From assembly GCA_012719455.1 (NCBI GenBank), contig JAAYAJ010000105.1:1-64000 (forward strand): DNA of 64,000 bases, written 5' to 3'. A program made the position numbers and the translations under genes. The notes under the pieces are model-generated. The model was not told the DNA's origin. It was given only the letters and a program-made list of their open reading frames with translations, and searched no databases. This DNA is from Acidobacteriota bacterium (lineage in GTDB: Bacteria > Acidobacteriota > UBA6911). Shown here in pieces: positions 61,930 through 63,620 of the stretch (within the stretch, counting starts at the first letter, position 1; the number at the start of each line of letters is the position of its first letter).

Positions 61930-62258
61930 CTTGTTGTTAGCGCTCAAGGTGCCTTCCTTTGAACGGGAAACGTATGAATATGAATAAGCAGGAAAAATAG
62001 CACAACTGCCCCCGGGGCGCAATCGAAGGTTTCCCCCATGTCTCTCCCCCCGGGCGGAAAGATGGGCCTGTTTTTTGGCCAGGCCTATACAGCCCCGCTC
62101 TTCCCGGCATAAATGATCCATGAAAACGCCGGCGGCGCGGCACCATGAATTGCTGGCGTGACACCGCCCGGGAGTGCTATCATGATGGCGCATGCGACGG
62201 CCCGAAGATCCGCGGGGATCGCCGGTGCTCCGTGCCGTCCAGACCCGCAGGAGGCTTG

Positions 62259-63620
62259 ATGAAGAAGACTTTTGGTGTTTTGCTGCTGTTTCTTGGCGCT
62301 GCCGTCCTTTTATCGACCGCCATCAGCGTGGGCCCCTCGCGCGCCGATGACGCCTCCGGGATCACGGTGGCTTACACGAGCAACCTGCTGGGCTACCTGG
62401 AACCGTGCGGTTGAGTGGATACGGGCGAACAGCTCGGCGGGCTGTACAAGAAGGCCACTCATCTAAACCAATACCGCAAGGATCACACCGGGCTCGTCAT
62501 CGTGGATTCGGGCGACCTGCTCAACGAGGAGGAAGAGCTTCCCGAGTCGGTGATCGAAAGCGCGAAACTCAAGGCGGAACTGATCCTGGAAGTCTACAAG
62601 ACCATCGGGATCGACGCCGTCAACGTCGGGGAGCTCGACCTGGTCCTGGGACTGGACTATCTCAAGGAACTGGAAAAGAAGCACTCCTTCCCCTTCGTAT
62701 CCACCAACCTGGTCGATGCCGATGACAAACCCGTCTTCGAGCGCTACGTGCTCAAGAAGGTCAACGGCAAGACCGTTGCCATCATGGGCCTTTACGGCGA
62801 CACCTCGGAGATGGCGGGCAAGCTCGCCGACATCACGGGCGGCAAACTCAATGTCCAGGATCCCATCAAGGCGGCGGAAGCGGTGGTGGCCGAAGTCTCG
62901 GGAAAAGCCGACTACGTAATCGCGTTGACGCACCAGATCGCCAACCGCGACTGGGTCATCGCCCGCCGCGTCAAGGGGATCCACCTGATCGTCGGCGGCC
63001 ATGACAAGTTGAAGAACCAGGATCCCCAGGTGGCCGGCGACACCCTCATCGTCCGGGCGGGGGAGAAGGGACAGTACCTGGGCATGATCGAGGTCTCCCT
63101 TGACGGTTCGCAGGAACCGGCCAACACCCTGGTCCCGCTCGGCGACGACGTCGCCGACGATGCACAGATCAAGGAAATGATCGCGGCCTACAACGACAAG
63201 GTGGCCGAGATGTACGGGGGGAGCGCCGAAGAACGGACCGCATCGGCCGATGTGCCGCTGCGGGTGGAGGCCTGCGCTCCCTGCCACAGCAGCCAGGTGG
63301 CGCAGTGGAAGACGACGGATCATGCAAAGGCCTACGCCACCCTGGCTGGAAAGTCCAAGCAGTATGATCCCAAGTGCCTCTCCTGCCACACCGTCCGCTT
63401 CGAGCAGCCGAACGGCTTCAACATGAAGGAGCAGCAGATGGCGCTCGTAAACGTGCAGTGCGAATCGTGCCACGGAGACGCGACCGAACACCTGGCCAGC
63501 ATGAAGCCGATCCCGGTTGCCGATCCGCAGATCGATCTCTGCCTGAAATGCCACACCGAAGACCGTTGCCCGGAATTTGAAGAGGAAAAGGATATCGTCT
63601 TCGGCAAGATCAAGCACTAA
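62259..63620 (+). CDS. Candidate selenoprotein: secreted tetraheme c-type cytochrome with degenerate 5'-nucleotidase/UshA-like domain (Sec at UGA 62412-62414)
   Basis: ATG 62259 with GGAGG upstream; signal peptide MKKTFGVLLLFLGAAVLLSTAISVGPSRADD; ...YTSNLLGYLEPCG-UGA-VDTGEQLGGLYKKAT... open in the same frame to 63620; four CxxCH motifs at 63272, 63375, 63459, and 63540. Confidence 0.8.
62412..62461 (+). promoter_or_regulatory. Candidate bacterial SECIS hairpin
   Basis: Lower stem 62412-62418/62455-62461 (7 bp, includes the UGA), upper stem 62429-62435/62439-62445 (7 bp, one G-U), apical loop GGC 21 nt after the UGA. Confidence 0.7.

Follow-up and report, generated by a model that had tools for sequence, protein, structure and literature searches.

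An in-frame UGA probably encodes selenocysteine in a UshA-like tetraheme protein from an Acidobacteriota bacterium

Introduction

Near the end of the DNA analysed here (64,000 nucleotides, referred to as the window), a reading frame of 51 codons stops at a TGA, and the same frame resumes directly behind it and runs on through four heme-binding motifs. Does the TGA terminate a short protein, or is it decoded as selenocysteine (Sec) within a longer one, and what would such a protein do? The original prediction, made from the letters alone, took the UGA for Sec in a periplasmic four-heme protein. This reading is supported by the Sec machinery of the genome, by the conservation of the TGA and by its alternation with Cys codons, and we put at roughly 0.93 the probability that the UGA at 62412-62414 is decoded as Sec in a protein of the NCBIfam family NF041198. 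As the selenoprotein call appears to be right and the protein is already catalogued, the value of the locus lies in its function.

Results

One reading frame spans the TGA

The gene occupies a single frame on the forward strand whose sole interruption, by sequence and translation, is the in-frame TGA. The ATG at 62259 opens 51 codons ending in NLLGYLEPCG; after the TGA, the same frame stays open until the TAA at 63618-63620, and the read-through product has 453 residues with four CxxCH motifs. A short frame with a signal peptide and a terminal EPCG, followed by a four-heme frame beyond the TGA, had been claimed for this locus, and the sequence agrees. The N-terminus is hydrophobic (residues 1-31, ending in SRADD), and residues 2-20 of the signal peptide are helical in the predicted structure. 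Third-position GC is high in this one frame on both sides of the TGA (0.75 and 0.83). The features of the gene are as follows.

62250..62254, + strand: ribosome-binding site GGAGG, preceding the ATG at 62259 (sequence)
62259..63620, + strand: probable UshA-like tetraheme selenoprotein gene, 453 aa with UGA as Sec, then TAA (NF041198, 345 bits, cut-off 275)
62259..62351, + strand: signal peptide region (MKKTFGVLLLFLGAAVLLSTAISVGPSRADD; sequence, judged by eye)
62406..62414, + strand: Cys50-Gly51-Sec52 (TGC GGT TGA), putative CxU motif (invariance in 76 aligned members; UGA/Cys alternation)
62412..62414, + strand: in-frame TGA, probably read as Sec (TGA in 10/10 genus genomes; Sec machinery in the genome)
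62429..62445, + strand: SECIS-like hairpin ACAGCUC-GGC-GGGCUGU, 7 bp with a 3-nt loop, beginning 14 nt past the UGA (synonymous constraint at codons 58-62)
62430..63110, + strand: UshA/SoxB-like calcineurin-fold domain with a degenerate metal/catalytic site (profile matches, predicted structure, ligand columns)
63270..63566, + strand: cytochrome c554-like tetraheme module (PF13435, 58.6 bits, cut-off 20.8; PF14522, 25.5 bits, cut-off 24.8)
63273..63287, + strand: heme motif 1, CAPCH (sequence, alignment)
63375..63389, + strand: heme motif 2, CLSCH (sequence, alignment)
63459..63473, + strand: heme motif 3, CESCH (sequence, alignment)
63540..63554, + strand: heme motif 4, CLKCH (sequence, alignment)

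The TGA is conserved and alternates with cysteine

Each of ten genomes of the genus contained a tetraheme homologue above the cut-off, and each homologue, at 57-88% protein identity to the window protein, had one TGA inside it, at the identical codon. The same frame and TGA were also met in many phyla, a recurrence well beyond chance. In a tree of 79 tetraheme homologues, taken from records labelled Acidobacteriota, Thermodesulfobacteriota, Myxococcota, Planctomycetota, Pseudomonadota, Eiseniibacteriota and others, exactly the Sec52 column held TGA in 38 sequences and Cys in 41; at least five Sec/Cys switches were counted on this tree, four of them forced by well-supported branches. No residue other than Cys or Sec was present at column 52 among 76 aligned sequences. 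Their extraction demanded C or U at this column, but the search for the loci had imposed no such demand, and 77 of the 79 satisfied it. Cys50, Gly51 and Cys/Sec52 were invariant across the 76 aligned members. The proposal that the UGA falls where a second Cys is expected is thus borne out, as homologues have Cys or UGA only at this column. Members without hemes occur with Sec (L040, L041, L043, L045 and L053) as well as with Cys (L039 and L056), so that the presence of the heme module is not tied to the choice between Sec and Cys. Several Planctomycetota loci (e.g., L095, L110 and L128) apparently carry a Sec and a Cys member of the family near each other.

A true stop, a sequencing error or a recent nonsense mutation, with the downstream frame being a pseudogene or a gene of its own initiated at the GTG that immediately follows the TGA and opens a 401-aa ORF, has next to nothing left in its favor, given that the identical TGA recurs in all ten genus genomes and in dozens of members elsewhere, that protein conservation runs unbroken across it between flanks sharing the high third-position GC of one frame, that other members have Cys at the position, and that the codon after the TGA in relatives is GTG, ATG, GCG, GCC or GCT, in most cases not a start, so that a start codon there is not conserved. 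Periplasmic heme attachment in c-type cytochromes needs a signal peptide, and the downstream ORF alone would be without one. Conservation likewise excludes, or renders very unlikely, sequencing error, split genes and a pseudogene; a misread base or an indel at the TGA, a concern raised with the original prediction, is refuted because relatives keep the TGA. The window gene is a good example of automatic ORF callers splitting genes at UGA.

The genome encodes the selenocysteine machinery

The Sec reading called for selA, selB, selD and tRNA-Sec (selC) in the genome, and all were found in the window genome (2.79 Mb, 97.4% complete, 1.8% contaminated) above curated cut-offs. ARAGORN gave two tRNA-Sec genes, both with the anticodon UCA. 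The machinery is present twice: contig C5 carries one set as a cluster (tRNA-Sec, selD, selA and selB; L001, L010, L018 and L019), and the other is scattered, with tRNA-Sec on C87 (L002), selA on C40 (L017), selB on C39 (L009) and selD on C54 (L020). Most other genus genomes have one selA, whose scores resemble those of the C40 copy. Either contamination or the acquisition of a second set may account for the C5 copies; whatever their origin, the scattered set suffices for Sec decoding. The selD gene on C54 (L020, 1501-2433) has its own in-frame TGA (TTAAG-U-AAKMG) with a hairpin downstream. SelD is another classic Sec protein, and the one on C54 is probably itself a selenoprotein. Apart from this selD, no in-frame TGA was seen in the other examined genes of the window genome.

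A SECIS-like hairpin is under synonymous constraint

RNAalifold recovered the hairpin at 62429-62445 in each of the ten genus sequences, with every base pair intact. Among 60 invariant amino-acid columns of four- or sixfold degeneracy, just four were encoded by one and the same codon throughout the ten genes, three of these being at codons 59-62, within the hairpin (P about 5e-4); Gln58 is likewise fixed as CAG in the ten genus genes. The folding energy was unremarkable against shuffles (z from -1.6 to +0.25 over the four stretches tried), so the case for a SECIS rests on conservation. As judged from these aligned genes, the codon pattern shows that a constraint beyond the protein level acts on the hairpin sequence, and we infer that SelB binds it. 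Among the fetched loci, a TGA-plus-hairpin pattern with a flexible spacer turned up solely in the UshA-like gene family. An Rfam scan of the region returned no credible match. An alignment of 15 diverse members lacked a stretch with enough conservation to scan the collection, and the genus alignment took its place.

Reading of the UGA as a residue other than Sec, through near-cognate suppression or a change of code, was also considered. It is scarcely more credible than a stop: the genome has the full Sec machinery, the UGA alternates only with Cys, a conserved hairpin lies at the spacing of a SECIS, the family is named a (seleno)protein in the NCBI curation, and the other examined genes, bar selD on C54, have no in-frame TGA. 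An altered genetic code was rejected.

The protein belongs to a catalogued selenoprotein family

With Cys substituted for Sec, the window protein scored 345.1 bits (cut-off 275) against NF041198, UshA_like_PCGU, described as 'UshA-like (seleno)protein', and the model also recognizes every one of 40 aligned members. LEPCGU in the window protein is the PCG-U motif that follows the GYxEP segment, and in genome searches the heme region matched the C-terminal part of the model (profile 352-517). The PCG-U motif, the UshA-like domain and the heme region are all shared, with no defining difference; the window protein is shorter, leaving profile 271-351, between the two matched stretches, uncovered. 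The window gene is a member of an already catalogued selenoprotein family and not of a new kind. A Cys-rich 'LEPCGC' segment, held in the original prediction to be common in UshA-like proteins, is indeed found in the UshA-like subfamily but not in UshA-type nucleotidases in general. A COG0737 UshA-like CxU selenoprotein was counted in a 2008 ocean metagenome study (PMC2398784), and the UshA-like CxU protein was listed in a 2022 review (PMC9312934) and in a 2026 review that names NF041198 (PMC13188914). Text searches of these three papers turned up no passage discussing the heme fusion, which the NCBI model includes.

Three other selenoproteins or candidates invite comparison. UshA-like (seleno)protein family 2 (NF049981) shares the UshA-like domain and a Cys/Sec motif, but the window protein reaches only 35 bits against its cut-off of 140, the 262-position model has no room for the heme part, and the motif spacing is CxxU (PMC13188914) as opposed to CxU in the window protein. 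ExtKL (NF040886) is also a multiheme c-type cytochrome with Sec; it gave no match to the window protein at E 0.001. In the Geobacter candidate of PMC1914089, the hemes are N-terminal and the C-terminal part is unrelated.

The UshA/SoxB-like domain has a degenerate catalytic site

The predicted structure (mean pLDDT 84, pTM 0.81) found its best structural match in 5'-nucleotidases (E about 1e-23), and by sequence the domain profile matches 5'-nucleotidases and SoxB. The window protein thus has fold and remote sequence similarity in common with the SoxB thiosulfohydrolase and the UshA 5'-nucleotidase, but those enzymes have neither the Cys-x-Sec motif nor hemes, and the window protein has no catalytic N-H pair. 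A working hydrolase of the UshA/SoxB type, be it a nucleotidase or a thiosulfohydrolase, with Sec and hemes as incidental additions would account for the calcineurin-type 5'-nucleotidase fold, for the 81.3 and 49.4 bits obtained against the curated SoxB and UshA families, and for the retention of D86, H225 and H248 in the window protein. Those scores are, however, far below the respective cut-offs of 550 and 600, and Pfam Metallophos reaches 17.7 bits against a cut-off of 21.5. The nucleotidase GNHE aligns to GELD (residues 124-127), which puts E125-L126 in place of the N-H pair in columns that vary across members, and the columns of D86, H225, H248 and K250 show no conservation across members either; the window protein has neither the Asn-His catalytic pair of UshA/SoxB nor a complete set of metal ligands. 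We regard such a hydrolase as improbable.

Invariant in the family are instead Gly45, Cys50, Gly51, Cys/Sec52 and all heme Cys and His residues. With the nucleotidase columns scrambled and these residues kept, we infer that hydrolysis has been abandoned and that the Cys-Gly-Sec pair forms the active centre. Residues 53-55, beside Sec52, have pLDDT below 50, so the model gives no Sec-heme distance.

Neighbouring genes hint at thiol or sulfur chemistry in some relatives

By eye, the window gene lies downstream of genes for a TPR-type protein, a YceD/DUF177-like protein, PlsX, acyl carrier protein and ETF subunits, and upstream of one for a DEAD-box helicase; these neighbours look like housekeeping genes and give no functional clue. 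The Sec form is directly preceded, across a gap of about 60-120 nt, by a Thioredoxin_4 (DsbA-like) gene in three of three Syntrophaceae-type members.

L073, 3173-3856: Thioredoxin_4/DsbA-like gene
L077, 3199-3882: Thioredoxin_4/DsbA-like gene
L083, 3139-3837: Thioredoxin_4/DsbA-like gene

The Cys form in two near-identical Gammaproteobacteria (L074 and L076, 1785-3293) is preceded by a SoxA/TsdA-type cytochrome c and a calcineurin-like phosphoesterase. Both kinds of neighbour are hints, from few loci, of thiol or sulfur chemistry.

The Thioredoxin_4 genes suggest a variant in which the CxU pair does not act on a small substrate but engages a DsbA/thioredoxin-like protein in thiol-disulfide exchange, with the hemes as the electron outlet. 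This variant survives better than the hydrolase, yet it is still rather unlikely: neither the window gene nor its relatives L060, L061 and L065 within the genus have a Thioredoxin_4 neighbour, and the Gammaproteobacterial Cys members have the SoxA/TsdA cytochrome and the metallophosphoesterase instead.

A c554-like tetraheme module and a possible electron relay

Pfam assigned Cytochrome_C554 (PF13435) to residues 338-406 and Cytochrome_C7 (PF14522) to residues 392-436. The PF13435 match makes the tetraheme module resemble that of Nitrosomonas cytochrome c554 (NF043010), but the likeness is limited to the C-terminal ~110 residues of the window protein, which scores 36.8 bits against the NF043010 equivalog cut-off of 400. 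The union of a tetraheme module with a Cys-Sec domain, as first proposed, is real and conserved in homologues.

Together, these data are consistent with a redox protein of the periplasm that works through selenol/thiol chemistry and is connected to a c554-like tetraheme relay. SelB and Sec-tRNA would decode the UGA at 62412-62414, guided by the hairpin just downstream, whose role is suggested by its conservation. The signal peptide would then export the protein to the periplasm, where four c-type hemes would be attached. The calcineurin-fold domain, having lost the nucleotidase catalytic pair, would bear the invariant Cys-Gly-Sec pair, which most likely performs thiol/selenol chemistry, either by forming a reversible selenenylsulfide or by attacking a sulfur-type substrate. 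The c554-like module would pass electrons to or from periplasmic carriers. A relay step from Cys-Sec to the hemes seems somewhat favored, and the fusion is most plausibly explained by electron transfer between Sec and heme; the substrate, the direction of electron flow and a Sec-heme contact are put forward as proposals. Because heme-less members with Sec exist, the CxU motif can exist without fused hemes, and Sec-to-heme transfer stays a matter of interpretation. The fuller reading is tentative: a former phosphohydrolase fold would have become, in several phyla, an extracytoplasmic selenol/thiol enzyme hard-wired to its own tetraheme relay through a direct Sec-to-heme path, acting on sulfur, selenium or a protein disulfide.

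The family is widespread, with Cys-x-Sec/Cys strictly kept, phosphatase chemistry apparently lost and hemes fused in many members, and it offers a testable case of periplasmic selenol chemistry coupled to multiheme electron transfer. A free-standing small cytochrome resembling the tetraheme C-terminus of the family is encoded elsewhere in the genome, in a 158-aa frame on the minus strand (L026; G000:C82:4586-4939), and has a counterpart in most genus genomes.
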